64,000 bases of DNA, from the IMG/VR virus record IMGVR_UViG_3300046791_000095, positions 1-64,000 of that record, one strand, 5' to 3'. Positions 3,693 through 61,202 of the stretch are shown here, piece after piece (the stretch's first letter is position 1; each line of letters opens with the position of its first letter). The notes under the pieces are model-generated. The model had not been told where the DNA came from, ran no database searches, and saw nothing but the letters and a program-made list of their open reading frames with translations. The DNA comes from a virus. The translations under genes were made by a program, and so were the position numbers.

Positions 3693-4423
3693 AACTCTAC
3701 CTCGTAGGCGGGGCGGTTCGTGACTACGCCCTCGGTGTGAAGGGGACGAAGGACTACGACTTCGCTGTCGAGGCGGATTCGTACAAAGACATGGTTGTTG
3801 GCTTGCGCGCTGCTGGTGCAACCATCTGGCAGGAGCGACTTGAGTTCGTGACGGTCCGGGCTCAGTTCCCTGTGGTGCTCGGCTCTTTCGGCGGGCTGCT
3901 CCCGACGGGCAGTCGTGTCGTTGATGCTGACTTCACGCTCTGCCGGGCTGAGACTCAGTATTCGGACCTACGTCATCCTGACACGGTGACGCCTGCCACT
4001 CTCGATGTCGATCTCAGCCGGCGTGACTTCACGATGAATGCGATGGCTGTGGGTGAGAATGGTCAGTGGCACGATCCGTACAACGGATGGGATGACGCTG
4101 AGGATCATGTCCTCAAGACGGTCGGACATCCTCAAGACCGGTTCACCGAGGACCCACTTCGGATGCTGCGGGCTCTCCGCTTCGCCATCAAGTACAACCT
4201 GCGCTTCAACGCTACTCTCGCGGCTGTGCTGGACGACAGGAGGCTTCTACGCGGGATCGAGACTCTTCCGGCCGAGCGGGTGCGCGAGGAGTTGAACAAG
4301 GCTTTCAGTGCGGACAGCTACCGCACGATGTATTACCTGATGACCCGCTTCCCGGAACTTGGTGCAGCCGTCGCCACCTATCACCCGAACCTCAAGCTCA
4401 AGGTGGTTCAGGAGGGAATGTGA
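3689..4423 (+). CDS. cca: CCA-adding enzyme / tRNA nucleotidyltransferase
   Basis: Class II nucleotidyltransferase of the poly(A) polymerase head family. The motifs are in order: GGAVRD (7-12), the catalytic KDYDF (21-25), RRDFTMNAMA (111-120), the EDPLRMLRALRFA ribose/base-recognition block (154-166) and ERVREELNKAF (196-206). It would add or repair the 3' CCA of tRNAs. At 244 residues it has head and neck but little of the body and tail of the roughly 400-residue cellular enzymes. With phage tRNAs, RtcB and a second RNA ligase in the same window, a tRNA-maintenance role is likely. Confidence 0.9.
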   Translation: MKLYLVGGAVRDYALGVKGTKDYDFAVEADSYKDMVVGLRAAGATIWQERLEFVTVRAQFPVVLGSFGGLLPTGSRVVDADFTLCRAETQYSDLRHPDTVTPATLDVDLSRRDFTMNAMAVGENGQWHDPYNGWDDAEDHVLKTVGHPQDRFTEDPLRMLRALRFAIKYNLRFNATLAAVLDDRRLLRGIETLPAERVREELNKAFSADSYRTMYYLMTRFPELGAAVATYHPNLKLKVVQEGM

Positions 4424-9869: not shown

Positions 9870-10097
9870 ATGAGCAACTCTCAGCAGTCGTACCAGAGCG
9901 GAGGCGTCGGGTTCACCGGCCTTCTCGCCGTTGCGTTCATCGTCCTGAAGCTCATCGGAGTCATTCACTGGTCGTGGTGGTGGGTCACTGCTCCCCTCTG
10001 GGGCGGTCTTGCGATCTTCATCGCGATCATGATCGTCCTGCTTCTCGTCTTGGGCATTGGCGAACTCATTGGTGGACATCAGCGTCCGCCTCGGTAA
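9870..10097 (+). CDS. Two-helix membrane protein (75 aa)
   Basis: Start MSNSQQS follows GGAGTAAAATC. Two hydrophobic segments (GFTGLLAVAFIVLKLIGVI; LAIFIAIMIVLLLVLGIG) flank the aromatic loop HWSWWWVTAPLW. This layout resembles the small phage membrane proteins annotated as transmembrane Fragile-X-F. Probably in the inner membrane, role unknown. It precedes rtcB by 13 nt. Confidence 0.65.
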   Translation: MSNSQQSYQSGGVGFTGLLAVAFIVLKLIGVIHWSWWWVTAPLWGGLAIFIAIMIVLLLVLGIGELIGGHQRPPR

Positions 10098-10110
10098 GAA
10101 AGGAAATTCT

Positions 10111-11400
10111 GTGAGCAACATTCGCTGGTTCACCGACATCAACGAGGTTGAGCCCGAAGCGCGTGCGCAGGTGGAACGGACGGCGAGCATGCCCTTCGTC
10201 AAAGGCGTAGCCGTCATGCCTGATGTTCACTTCGGCAGAGGCTCGACTGTGGGCACCGTTGTGGCTACGAAGGGTGCAGTCATGCCTGCCTGTGTGGGCG
10301 TGGACATCGGCTGTGGGATGATCGCGGTCCGGACGAATCTCAAGCCCGAGGCTGTGCGCCCGCATCTCGTGAAGATTCGTGAGGGCATCGAACGACGCAT
10401 CCCGCTCGGGATCGGCCAGCGGGGGATGAACTCGAAGATTCTCCCGACGGCCGAGTCACGCATTGCGATGCTCGAAGCTGAGGCTGCGCACGCGTGGGCC
10501 GATGTGAATCACATGAACGCCCGCGCGAAGGACTGGCGGAGTCAGTTGGGCTCCCTCGGTGGGGGTAATCACTTCATCGAGGTGTGCGTGGGACGCTCCT
10601 TCGACAACTACGACGCCGATAGTGTTGGATTTCCTTTTGGCCCGGAGGAGGTCTGGGTCATCCTTCACTCTGGCTCGCGCGGTGTTGGCAACAAGACGGG
10701 AACTCACTGGACCCAGGTTGCCAAGAAGCAGGCGGCCCGGTACAAGTACGACACGTACCTGCCTGATGCTGATCTCGCGTACCTTGTGCAGGAGAGCGAG
10801 GAGTACCATCAGTACATGAAGGAGTTGTACTGGTGTCAGTCCTTCGCGCAACTCAACCGTGACGAGATGATGGATCGGGTTATCAATGAACTGTCTTACA
10901 CACTGTGCGGTGGATACGGAACTCCTGCTCTTCCGTTTGACATCGATCTGCGGAAGGACATGGAGTCTGACAGGCTCATTGAAGTCGAGCGCATCAACTG
11001 TCATCATAACTACGTCAGCAAGGAGCATCATGATGGCGACAACGTCCTCATCACCCGGAAGGGCGCAATACTGGCGTCTGATGGAACGCGCGGGCTCATT
11101 CCCGGTTCGATGGGGGCGAGCAGTTTCATCGTTACGGGCCTTGGGCATTCCGGAGCGTACTGTAGCGCACCTCATGGGGCTGGCCGCAGAATGTCTCGAA
11201 CGGCAGCACGAAAGCAGTTCACTCTCGAAGGAGTCACGCAAGAGATGGCGTCGCTCGGCATTGAAGCCCGAGTCCGCGAAGCAATCGTTGACGAAGCTCC
11301 GGGCGCGTACAAGAACATCGACATCGTGATGTTCGATGCGCGGGAGCTTGTGCGTCCGACGCACGTCCTGAATCAACTCATCAGCGTGAAGGGAGACTGA
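10111..11400 (+). CDS. rtcB: RtcB-type RNA ligase
   Basis: Family hallmarks of the GTP- and Mn-dependent 3'-phosphate/5'-OH RNA ligase: MPDVHFGRGSTVG, ACVGVDIGCGM (metal-binding Cys and Asp), LGSLGGGNHFIE, LHSGSRGVG, HHNYVSKEHH, and SAPHGAGRRMSR with the guanylylated-His region. GTG start after AAGGAAATTCT; 429 residues, near the bacterial length. It joins ends left by metal-independent ribonucleases, including many anticodon nucleases and toxins. It lies close to a second RNA ligase and shares an operon direction with cca. Confidence 0.93.
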   Translation: MSNIRWFTDINEVEPEARAQVERTASMPFVKGVAVMPDVHFGRGSTVGTVVATKGAVMPACVGVDIGCGMIAVRTNLKPEAVRPHLVKIREGIERRIPLGIGQRGMNSKILPTAESRIAMLEAEAAHAWADVNHMNARAKDWRSQLGSLGGGNHFIEVCVGRSFDNYDADSVGFPFGPEEVWVILHSGSRGVGNKTGTHWTQVAKKQAARYKYDTYLPDADLAYLVQESEEYHQYMKELYWCQSFAQLNRDEMMDRVINELSYTLCGGYGTPALPFDIDLRKDMESDRLIEVERINCHHNYVSKEHHDGDNVLITRKGAILASDGTRGLIPGSMGASSFIVTGLGHSGAYCSAPHGAGRRMSRTAARKQFTLEGVTQEMASLGIEARVREAIVDEAPGAYKNIDIVMFDARELVRPTHVLNQLISVKGD

Positions 11401-58585: not shown

Positions 58586-59210
58586 CGGAGGGCTCCACGG
58601 TGAATGCTTCGTTCACAGCAGCGAGGGTGATCGTGGGGCCGCATGCAACCATCATTTCCTTGAGACGCGAAGTCGCCTCCGCACGGGTCATCGGAACCGA
58701 TGGGCCGAGGTCCTTCGCCTTCGCCTTCTCCTTGAGCTTCTGCCAGAGCGTCGATGCGCTCATGCGCGTGTCGGGATGGAGGCGTGGGTCGAAGATGAAG
58801 CGGAGACACTGCTTGATGACGCGCTTCTCGATCTCCTCTTCCGTGAGATCGCCCGCGTCGTACATATCGATCATGTCCGACATGGCCTTCATGGCTTCAT
58901 GGTCGAGCATCTTCGATGGCTTGCTCGGATTATCGAGGGCCGGCTCTGCTGATTCGCTAGAGGGCTCAGATACCTCCGCAGCGCGTGGAGTCGTTGGACG
59001 CGACGGGCGCGTCTTCGGAGCCTTTGCTACGGTCTGAGGCTTGCGCGAGGGCGGGAGCCGGCTCTCGGAAATCAGAGCGCGACGTGCGATGGCGATTGTG
59101 GCAGTCGAGACTTTTGCCCCGATTGCCTGCTGCTCCTTCGTTTCGTCCGGATGGGCCAGGATGTACTCTGTGGCCTGCTTGAACTTCAGTTCACGAAGCG
59201 TTGTCATCAT
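58458..59210 (-). CDS. HTH protein, first late gene (about 250 aa)
   Basis: N-terminal helix-turn-helix-like segment TKEQQAIGAKVSTATIAIAR (about residues 20-40), then a Pro/Ser-rich linker, a helical middle (MSDMIDMYDAGDLTEEEIEK, IKQCLRFIFDPRLHPDTRMS) and a Pro-rich tail. Its DNA-binding head and helical body fit a small terminase or a late regulator. The start is either of two adjacent ATGs (59210 or 59207); no strong Shine-Dalgarno is visible. Its 3' end overlaps the HExxH gene. Confidence 0.6.
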   Translation of the reverse strand: MMTTLRELKFKQATEYILAHPDETKEQQAIGAKVSTATIAIARRALISESRLPPSRKPQTVAKAPKTRPSRPTTPRAAEVSEPSSESAEPALDNPSKPSKMLDHEAMKAMSDMIDMYDAGDLTEEEIEKRVIKQCLRFIFDPRLHPDTRMSASTLWQKLKEKAKAKDLGPSVPMTRAEATSRLKEMMVACGPTITLAAVNEAFTVEPSDEGKVSTDAPEAPLSPPGTPQSPGSPPDLRPDGGTAGPQPLG

Positions 59211-59222
59211 ATACGTCCGTAT
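59211..59222. repeat. Short dyad at late-operon start
   Basis: ATACG and CGTAT are inverted around TC, directly abutting the start of the first late gene. Its place fits an operator, but it is short and could be chance. Confidence 0.35.
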
Positions 59223-59306
59223 TTTTGGGTGGCCTGGGGGCTGCGCACATTTCGCGCCATCGTTGGGGGGTCTCCGGGACCCTCCCATGCGAGCAGGCGC
59301 CCACGT

Positions 59307-59340
59307 TGGCACGAGTCTTGCTACAGCAAGTAGCGTGCCA
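59307..59340. promoter_or_regulatory. 34-bp dyad 1 (TGGCACG-N4-TTGCT)
   Basis: TGGCACG-N4-TTGCT is followed after 2 bp by its inverted partner AGCAA-N4-CGTGCCA. Each half fits the sigma-54 promoter pattern (GG-N10-GC) in its own direction. The minus-strand half points at the late operon about 95 bp away. It may alternatively be an operator for a dimeric protein or an origin iteron. Confidence 0.65.
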
Positions 59341-59375
59341 GCATGCATGCACCCCGCGCAGGCTCGCGCGCTCGT

Positions 59376-59409
59376 TGGCATGGTTCTTGCCATAGCACAT
59401 ATCGTGCCA
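59376..59409. promoter_or_regulatory. 34-bp dyad 2
   Basis: TGGCATG-N4-TTGCC, 2 bp, AGCAC-N4-CGTGCCA: the same 34-bp architecture as dyad 1, centre 69 bp away. Both GG-N10-GC signatures are kept in both directions. Confidence 0.65.
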
Positions 59410-59412
59410 GCG

Positions 59413-59446
59413 GGCGACCCAGACCAGCGTAGCATAGATCGTGCCG
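59413..59446. promoter_or_regulatory. Degenerate third dyad
   Basis: Only the right half is well kept (AGCAT-N4-CGTGCCG), 37 bp from dyad 2 in the same register. The left half is degenerate. The minus-strand reading is CGGCACG-N4-ATGCT. Confidence 0.45.
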
Positions 59447-59581
59447 GGATGCAAGCTGGAACAGTCAAGCGCGCGCAAAGCTTTTCCCGCCCCGAATTGC
59501 GTGTTGTCACACAGAACTGAGGGCGCGGCGAGTCGAATGCGGAACAGGGCGAGCCCACCCACAAGCAAGCCGAGTGCCAGT

Positions 59582-59600
59582 CTTCTAAGTTGTAATGTAA
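59582..59600 (+). repeat. 19-bp intergenic repeat, copy 2
   Basis: CTTCTAA[G]TTGTAATGTAA, one mismatch from the element at 4659-4677. It overlaps the left arm of the AT-rich inverted repeat described next. Confidence 0.55.
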
Positions 59601-59618
59601 TAGAACAAATAATTACAA
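59590..59618. repeat. AT-rich inverted repeat, origin candidate
   Basis: TTGTAAT and ATTACAA are perfect 7-bp arms around a 15-bp AT-rich centre, an AT island in an otherwise GC-rich non-coding region with dyad repeats. It could serve as an easily melted site at a replication origin. Function inferred. Confidence 0.45.
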
Positions 59619-59637
59619 GCATAAGGTGGCACAGTTC

Positions 59638-59671
59638 CACTGTAGCCCGCCCCATCCGGGGCTACACAGTG
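59638..59671. repeat. 11-bp imperfect hairpin
   Basis: CACTGTAGCCC pairs with GGGCTA-CA-CAGTG, a 2-nt bulge, around a 10-nt loop. It lies between the AT-rich inverted repeat and dyad half 4. May be a terminator or a binding site. Confidence 0.45.
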
Positions 59672-59720
59672 AAAGCCTGTGCAACACCTAAGGCGCATGC
59701 AATGACTATGCCAAGAACTC

Positions 59721-59743
59721 TGGCACGCCGCTTGCTAGTCCGC
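59721..59743 (+). promoter_or_regulatory. Isolated half-site TGGCACG-N4-TTGCT
   Basis: Exact match to the half-site of the dyads, on the plus strand, without the second arm. It has the -24/-12 sigma-54 spacing and points toward the rightward operon. Confidence 0.5.
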
Positions 59744-60120
59744 GAAAACGCTCCAACCCTCTGTCCCCCAACGCGTTACACCATTCGTTCGAGAAGGCCC
59801 CTAGCGTGCCCGCTGGCCGCGCCAATATGGCCGCGTGCCTCCCCATAGCCGCGCCCACCTGTGCAGTAGCGTAACCCCAACTCGCACATCACGTTGCGCC
59901 GTTTCCCCGACCCATCGAGGGAACAAAAACTCGCCGCGCTCCGTCGATCCTAGGAGCCCGCCCTCGCTGCTCGCCTGCGCACCCGGGCGCTCCCTCGTTC
60001 AGTTTCGCAACAGTGCCCCGAGAGGGCGTGTCCAAATTGACACACTCGCCCCGATTCTGACCTGTGCCACGCGCCCCTATCTAATGAGTAGAAGTCAAAA
60101 TCACGTCGTGCAGAAAAGTG

Positions 60121-60150
60121 TTGCATCACTCGCACTCTGCATGCTACACT
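60121..60150 (+). promoter_or_regulatory. Promoter (TTGCAT-18-TACACT)
   Basis: TTGCAT and TACACT are 18 bp apart, both close to the sigma-70 consensus. It reads rightward into the hairpin-dense gene-free region and the early operon at 60.86 kb. This is the best promoter in the divergent region. Confidence 0.55.
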
Positions 60151-60159
60151 GGTCTGAGC

Positions 60160-60815
60160 AGCACGAGGTCGCAAGAGGTTACACTGTGGCATCACCCTTG
60201 CACTCTACTTCGTCAGTCACACGATCCGAAGCGCCAAGAGCCCGAAGGACCCGCAAGGTCCCGTGGGACGATAGAGCGGACGGAACGACAGGAGCGGCCC
60301 GGAACGGGCCATAAGAGTAGCCCAAGCCTAACGGAACAGGTGCGCGTCCTGCCTCTTCACCAGTGGCGGCGAACCCATCGACCAGCGGCGAAAGCGCCTC
60401 CACCCAGTGCAGCGCGAAGCGGTAGTCGGAACGCACGCCCCATCGGCACTCGCACTCGCCACACCTCGATGCAGCCCCGCAACGGGCCGCCCGGGTGGAA
60501 GCGACCGCGAAGGCCACGACGACATGGGAGAGCGAGAAGGCGCAGAGCCTCCACGAGAGGCGGCACACAAGCGGCAGGGCAAACGCACCTAGAGCGGAAT
60601 GCGCGCGACCAACAGATCGGCCGAAGCTGGCCGGATGCGCGCACACTGCGATGATGCCGGGATACCGGCGAGCGGTGAAACGCGACGACCTTAGGAACGA
60701 GCCCGAGCCGAATGAGTCGTGAGATGGTGTAGGTCTCGGCGACGGCTGCATCAAGAACGAGGAGCACTGGGTTCGAAGCCCGTGCTCGGATGCTAGCCCG
60801 AGAGACCTCACCGCC
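60160..60815 (+). ncRNA. Candidate ~0.65-kb structured non-coding RNA
   Basis: Downstream of a promoter, this stretch has no credible ORF but many perfect hairpins: GGACC/GGTCC (60247-60261), GGCCCG/CGGGCC (60296-60310), GCCTC/GAGGC (60547-60561), a nested TGCGCGC...GCGCGCA (60600-60643) around CGGCC/GGCCG, and GCCGG/CCGGC with a GATA loop (60656-60670 region). It ends in a long hairpin of about 85 nt (60725-60812) with helices GGTG-AGGTCTC, GGCT-GCATC and GAGCAC-GGG and a TTCGAAG loop. No known RNA family is assigned; the boundaries are approximate. Confidence 0.45.
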
Positions 60816-60863
60816 TCTCACCTGACGAGCCCCAGAAGGGCGAAACTCAACCTAGGAGGCGTT

Positions 60864-61202
60864 GTGGCCCTCACCATCGATTGTCGCACCAGCCCGGACC
60901 AGTCCGAGGTCGCCATCTACACGCGGCAGCAGTGGCTTCAGATCGTCGCCTTCATGATGATGTTCGTGGGCATCTCGGACATCACCGAAGCGAACCTCGA
61001 CGAGACTTACCGTCGCATGCACCTCTGGGAGAGCACTGGCGGCCCGCTCGCGGGCGACATCCACGGTCCGGTCACCGAGGCCACGCTCCGCTACTTCATC
61101 GGCGCCCACGCGAACGTCAGCACGATGACCAAGCGTCAGTTCACCGCCCGCTTCAAGTGCTACGCTGCGGACGTGGCGACGCGCAAAGCGAAGGCGGCCT
61201 GA
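60864..61202 (+). CDS. Hypothetical early protein (112 aa)
   Basis: GTG start with CCTAGGAGGCGTT upstream, a ribosome-site context shared with the Sak4-like gene. Alpha-helical protein with a hydrophobic segment ([17 protein letters not shown]) and a polar C-terminus ending RKAKAA. No recognised family. It follows the structured leader. Confidence 0.65.

Follow-up and report, generated by a model that had tools for sequence, protein, structure and literature searches.

A type III hammerhead ribozyme bordering a U-poor leader, a candidate structured RNA family, in a group of related phages

Introduction

Hammerhead ribozymes are known from phages, including examples at gene borders (Perreault et al. 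2011, PMC3088659), and Perreault et al. (PMC3088659) report one where a transcript of HF2 begins at its 5' end. Haloviruses of the HF1 group likewise combine a hammerhead ribozyme with a gene for the RNA ligase RtcB in one tailed virus (PMC7230728), although these are archaeal viruses. Other phage noncoding RNAs, the VIPR vrRNAs, are built from 9-16 tandem YNNGG units and are sometimes interspersed with hammerheads (PMC13142463). Large structured noncoding RNAs are represented by GOLLD and ROOL, the former being partly phage-borne. In general, hammerhead cleavage yields a 2',3'-cyclic phosphate and a 5'-OH end, and these product ends are the ones that RtcB joins.

The locus described here was analysed within a window of 64,000 nucleotides, which is nearly all of the 64,672-base virus record IMGVR_UViG_3300046791_000095. 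Since a further contig, IMGVR_UViG_3300046656_000185, connects the end of the window to its start, this genome must be either circular or permuted in a circular manner. A first-pass annotation had described a noncoding stretch at 60160-60815 as one candidate large structured RNA behind a promoter, resembling GOLLD and ROOL in profile, and had recognised no known motif in it. Comparison with related phages, through synteny, modules held in common and compensatory changes, supports its proposal that a promoter is followed by a large structured noncoding RNA. However, the 3' part of the stretch is a hammerhead ribozyme, thus a known motif, so that the stretch comprises a leader plus a ribozyme and not one single RNA. 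With RF00008 and the phage hammerheads described so far (PMC3088659) this ribozyme has the core, the three helices, the topology, the NUH cleavage site and the gene-border phage setting in common; it differs by about 90 extra nucleotides in stem I and by ending a conserved, U-poor structured leader, an arrangement of which a limited search of the open-access literature returned no account. Phage hammerheads as such are known; the leader is a candidate for a new RNA family. The features are compiled in Table 1.

Table 1. Positions of the features at the locus and of additional hammerheads in related phages. Positions refer to the window unless a related locus (L number) is named.
Feature	Position	Strand	Basis
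RtcB RNA ligase gene, possible partner	10057..11400	+	PF01139, E 1.5e-109
-24/-12 (sigma54-like) element TGGCATCACCCTTGCA, probable leader promoter	60187..60202	+	one mismatch to TGGCAYRNNNNTTGCW
U-poor structured leader RNA of about 507 nt, putative 5' product of cleavage	60212..60718	+	T content, synteny, shared modules
Element 1 of the leader, nested helices	60225..60284	+	six-phage consensus fold
Type III hammerhead ribozyme	60713..60849	+	complete hammerhead as MFE and centroid fold; covariation of stems in ten lineages
Hammerhead stem III	60713-60717/60845-60849	+	fold of 60711-60851
Predicted cleavage site	after C60718 (60718^60719)	+	GUC triplet at 60716-60718
Extended stem I	60719..60821	+	fold; three-tier hairpin of the first-pass annotation
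Stem I, core-proximal helix	60719-60724/60816-60821	+	fold
Stem I, distal 7-nt loop UUCGAAG	60772-60778	+	fold
Hammerhead core CUGACGA	60822-60828	+	sequence
Hammerhead stem II	60829-60832/60838-60841	+	fold
Hammerhead GAAA	60842-60845	+	sequence
AGGAGG, ribosome-binding-site-like, immediately 3' of the ribozyme	60854..60859	+	sequence
First downstream gene, 112 aa, coding start of the proposed 3' product	60864..61202	+	ORF
Downstream type II hammerhead	L161 4740-4900
Downstream type II hammerheads	L163 4995-5150, 4540-4670
Downstream type II hammerhead	L160 2760-2930
Downstream type II hammerhead	L169 4245-4345	-

Genomic setting and promoter

The noncoding stretch separates a leftward block, which includes a small-terminase-like gene, the terminase large subunit and portal, from a rightward block of small genes, the first of which has no PHROG match and a weak relative in L135 (E 6e-8). 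That the region is early is a surmise from this gene order. Related loci, labelled L followed by a number, were collected by terminase-based scans, the largest of which comprised 44 distinct loci; no relatives of the large terminase were found among cultured phages or in GTDB genomes. Nucleotide matches to Streptomyces phages near 61.2 kb fall in a coding segment. Wherever the contig of a relative extends far enough, the same layout recurs: leftward terminase genes, a -24/-12 element, a U-poor leader, the ribozyme, a ribosome-binding site and the first gene. At a distance from the locus, between 5093 and 12615, genes for a metallophosphoesterase, a DnaB/RepA-like AAA protein, a Nudix/nucleotidyltransferase, a nicotinamide phosphoribosyltransferase, RtcB and an RNA ligase constitute an NAD and RNA-repair module.

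The promoter-like sequence TTGCAT-18-TACACT, to which transcription had been ascribed in the first pass, is present at 60121-60150 but is probably not used, since the relatives share the -24/-12 element further downstream, which is the probable leader promoter. An element of the form YGGCMY-N6-TGC lies directly upstream of the leader in all 14 loci compared. It combines a TGGCAC-type -24 box and a TTGC-type -12 box in the GG-N10-GC spacing characteristic of sigma54 promoters, with weaker boxes in some loci (TGGCCC in L135, CGGCAC in L060), and it would place the transcription start near 60212. Sigma54-type sites with at most one mismatch occur eight times in the window against 1.26 expected, and all eight fall within 59307-60202; among perfect matches over 13 loci, 24 are situated inside the intergenic region and a single one outside. 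These sites occupy both strands from the terminase block to the leader and are almost absent elsewhere in the contigs, a density of such promoters that seems unusual in phages. The noncoding segment 59230-59736, which also precedes the leader, has a fold much more stable than expected by chance (z -5.75); this is probably due to promoter-like repeats in opposite orientations.

A type III hammerhead ribozyme behind the leader

As RNA, the segment 60713-60849 reads UGAGUC^GUGAGA...UCUCAC-CUGACGA-GCCC-CAGAA-GGGC-GAAA-CUCA. Both the MFE and the centroid structure of 60711-60851 are the complete hammerhead, in which three helices are formed, stem III is open and holds the 5' and 3' ends, and C60718 alone is unpaired at the cleavage site; the fold energy has a z of -4.46, and none of 200 shuffled sequences folds as well. 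The core is that of a type III hammerhead with regard to the CUGANGA...GAAA sequence, the A15.1-U16.1 pair (U60717-A60845) and the NUH triplet, which is GUC. The multi-tier terminal hairpin with its TTCGAAG loop, already noted in the first pass, is therefore real but belongs to the ribozyme, and the unit does not end at 60815, as the ribozyme containing this hairpin extends to about 60849 and the predicted cut precedes it.

Standard models capture this ribozyme poorly. RF00008 scores 13.6 bits on the window, far below its gathering score of 48.5 bits. It independently matches the corresponding position in L006, whose stem I is short (25.7 bits, E 0.0025), which speaks for the hammerhead, although this score and that on the L169 genome (23.3 bits) are likewise below gathering. 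The low score and the resulting miss in the window are attributed to the greatly extended stem I, because the model allows no long arm. A sub-threshold match of the Hammerhead_HH9 model covers the core and is anchored wrongly at the cleavage side, and Hammerhead_II gives weak matches only. Since the bare core pattern is not rare, with 0.42 occurrences expected per window, the identification relies on the complete structure together with its recurrence in related phages. A search for all three permutations found no second hammerhead in the window.

The ribozyme recurs in about a dozen related phages; twelve syntenic hammerheads were tabulated, and one more is present in L207. In an alignment of ten lineages arranged according to the stems, in which filler stood in for the loops and a one-nucleotide core insertion of L144 was taken out, 96% of the stem cells are paired as opposed to 79% in shuffled controls, and 10 of 15 stem pairs have changed on both sides (3.2 when shuffled). 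Such an alignment leans towards structure because of its layout by stems; still, the controls remain far lower, and pairing falls to 21-47% when the registers are slid. Long stem I arms are also present in L060, L160, L163 and L135. Moreover, the association of ribozyme and leader was recovered from either side: L060 was retrieved by the ribozyme pattern alone and then found to contain the leader and the same gene order, while L207, with a terminase that is 47% identical, was retrieved by the leader pattern alone and then found to contain the ribozyme and the same gene order. We regard the hammerhead as a genuine conserved ribozyme motif with near certainty.

Some members of the group deviate from this scheme. 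In the L143/L146 group, the ribozyme core was not found. L144 carries its insertion in the hammerhead core, near a position at which an insertion was reported to reduce activity (PMC3088659), and the hammerheads of L150 and L175 have CCGANGA cores; these three ribozymes may be weak or inactive. Hammerhead-like motifs with the CCGANGA sequence (U4 to C) are situated in L175 at 4100-4230 and about 4475 (minus) and in L150 at 2979 (minus), and L175 features this core in both type III and type II settings, so that CCGANGA is possibly a natural core variant. In addition, type II hammerheads, each with a long stem III insert, occur among the small genes downstream of the leader in several relatives (Table 1). 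In a pattern scan of viral contigs, hammerheads of this one stem II sequence class were found in at least 120 IMG/VR stretches (L009-L128), often several per contig and mostly of type I.

The U-poor leader and its structural modules

The leader of the window contains 8.5% T, and no other stretch of this length on either strand of the window is as poor in T. Throughout 13 loci including the window, leaders comprise 280-632 nt with 5.7-15.6% T (in L143 a 481-nt stretch was measured), and each has a T content that ranks in the lowest 1.5% of windows when both strands of its own contig are considered. The U-poor tract starts behind the -24/-12 element and extends to the ribozyme wherever the latter is present. 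A search with the leader pattern returned 19 stretches, six of them in this group, while the other 13 possess neither a ribozyme nor an equally deep U-poor tract (50-92 T per 400). Conversely, no comparably U-poor leader was found in unrelated phage contigs with type III hammerheads.

Two long ORFs overlap the stretch, of 178 aa on the plus and 210 aa on the minus strand, and long ORFs are to be expected because a T content of 8.5% makes stop codons rare. The first-pass view that the region contains no credible ORF holds: in tblastn of the stretch ORFs against 12 relatives no frame is conserved, the only match being a weak one to L160 (E 1.4e-4) in a segment conserved as DNA, no further match reaches E 0.03, and a real neighbouring gene reaches 1e-27 as a control. 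The Rfam comparison proposed at that stage, performed at gathering thresholds and up to E 10, yielded no family that fits the leader, and elsewhere only tRNAs and noise. Identity with VIPR vrRNAs was rejected, the longest YNNGG run being three units in any leader and one in the window.

Fold energy turned out to be too weak to serve as proof of leader structure and was rejected as such. The stretch 60150-60860 has a z of -1.96, with one of 20 shuffles folding equally well, and the leader without the terminal hairpin has a z of -1.43; single-sequence fold energies of the leaders are mostly unremarkable, and the density of hairpins emphasised in the first pass is thus weak evidence by itself. 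It is comparison with the relatives, not fold energy, that points to structure in the leader. Whole-leader alignments are poor, with a mean column identity of 54% for five leaders and 42% for eight, and the consensus fold of five leaders is unconvincing owing to an unfavourable covariation term; therefore, locally similar modules were tested. The leader sequence is far more variable than the ribozyme, and its modules are shared as a mosaic among most relatives. For instance, the 5' end of the L207 leader is similar to the window, L160 and L161, its middle to L135 and the part close to its 3' end to L144; the L144 leader in turn ends in a segment resembling L167, which resembles L143, and L148 and L150 have other modules in common. 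At the sensitivity used, the leaders of L006, L166 and L175 share little or nothing with the rest.

Alignments of two to six sequences per module were compared with shuffled-column controls, the window's own leader being tested directly only through element 1. This element, aligned from six phages including the window, has a z of -3.7 and five compensatory pairs against 1.1 in shuffled alignments, none of 100 of which reaches that count; its inner hairpin at 60247-60261 presents a CGCAA loop inside GAGCCC...GUGGGAC. Similar support was obtained for the L060/L160 module (z -4.5, nine compensatory pairs against a shuffle mean of 2.8) and the L144/L207 module (z -4.6, six against 0.7), again with none of 100 shuffles reaching the count, and weaker support for the L135/L207 module (z -1.7, three pairs). 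The L143/L167 module and two short L160/L163 segments gave no structural signal relative to shuffled columns. Covariation in relatives, as the first-pass annotation had suggested to look for, is accordingly seen in the ribozyme stems and several leader modules, while some modules lack it. Given alignments of two to six sequences, this is good evidence and not a deep covariation analysis. A covariance model of element 1 recovered its own members and one borderline match in the L148 leader (E 0.019). Taken together, these comparisons indicate that a conserved structured RNA is very probably encoded by the leader, which makes it a candidate for a new structured RNA family.

Proposed function and alternative explanations

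The ribozyme architecture, its conservation and covariation, the position and modules of the leader and the compensatory changes in several modules are computed results. From these we infer that the region is transcribed, where its transcript starts, that the transcript is cleaved and that the leader persists as a free RNA with a role in trans. The -24/-12 (sigma54-type) promoter ahead of the rightward genes would give rise to a transcript whose first ~507 nt would fold into a modular, U-poor structured RNA. Right behind this leader, the type III hammerhead with its extended stem I would cut the transcript at 60718^60719. The 5' product would be a discrete noncoding RNA of ~507 nt with a 2',3'-cyclic phosphate end, the 3' product an mRNA that begins with a 5'-OH and carries a hairpin immediately ahead of the first ribosome-binding site, and the released leader would act in trans. 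We lean towards this model as a whole, in which the transcript cuts itself and thereby sets a structured noncoding RNA apart from the mRNA behind it. It is about as likely as not that the leader, once released, is what carries the function, and its role in trans is a best guess about as apt to be right as wrong.

A rather unlikely but substantial alternative is that the ribozyme serves the mRNA only: cleavage would exchange the 5' triphosphate for a 5'-OH behind a strong hairpin and thus protect or time the mRNA, while the leader would be a spacer or a cis-acting element that is then discarded. The positions of the leader right behind the promoter of the gene block and of the ribozyme right before the first ribosome-binding site suit this explanation, as does the far greater variability of the leader sequence, and phage hammerheads do occur at gene borders, one of them coinciding with the 5' end mapped for an early transcript of a halovirus (PMC3088659). 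On the other hand, compensatory changes have preserved helices within the leader, and the L143/L146 group retains a leader, homologous to that of L167, in spite of having no detectable ribozyme; both observations suggest that the leader itself is functional. In a cis variant, the leader would work during transcription, for example as a put-like antitermination RNA, yet put-type RNAs are much shorter than its ~500 nt.

Improbable, though of interest as a lead, is a system in which hammerheads excise the large modular RNA and parts of the mRNA and the phage RtcB seals the resulting ends, religating or circularising the leader or mRNA pieces. Six of the group's seven near-complete genomes contain the gene, compared with 640 of 50,697 phage records, a baseline that is redundant and biased, and phage RtcB may simply repair cut tRNAs. 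The ends left by the hammerhead are RtcB substrates, and in L161 and L163, where the first gene has a type II hammerhead behind it, the intervening piece would bear both required ends; L161, however, has two ribozymes and no RtcB. The co-occurrence of both components in HF1-group haloviruses (PMC7230728) fits such a system, whereas the single hammerhead found in the window does not, as the 5' end of the leader would be a triphosphate and the leader consequently not directly circularisable.

A single giant, ornate RNA of the GOLLD/ROOL kind reaching to about 60815 is very improbable: the stretch is indeed large, structured, noncoding and phage-borne, but the covariance models of GOLLD, ROOL and OLE remain unmatched at gathering and, for 59150-60920, up to E 10, so that the first-pass likeness is one of analogy only, and the terminal hairpin belongs to a ribozyme that is predicted to cut at 60718, the RNA of the window being joined to mRNA and bounded by this ribozyme. 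Finally, protein-coding or chance sequence with incidental hairpins, in favour of which the long overlapping ORFs, leader fold z values of merely about -1.4 to -2 and the one translated match to L160 might be cited, is scarcely credible, given the expectation of long ORFs at this T content, the lack of a conserved frame and the contradicting covariation in ribozyme and leader modules.

Conclusions

The self-cutting transcript that we favour would assign the ribozyme to the boundary between a noncoding RNA and an mRNA. Because of their long stem I arms, such ribozymes escape detection by standard models. Phages with this ribozyme mostly also encode a ligase for its product ends, and sealing by RtcB, if true, would generate natural circular or respliced phage RNAs. 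The place of the ribozyme is clear and repeated, namely where the conserved structured RNA gives way to the first gene, which bears on the purpose of phage hammerheads.
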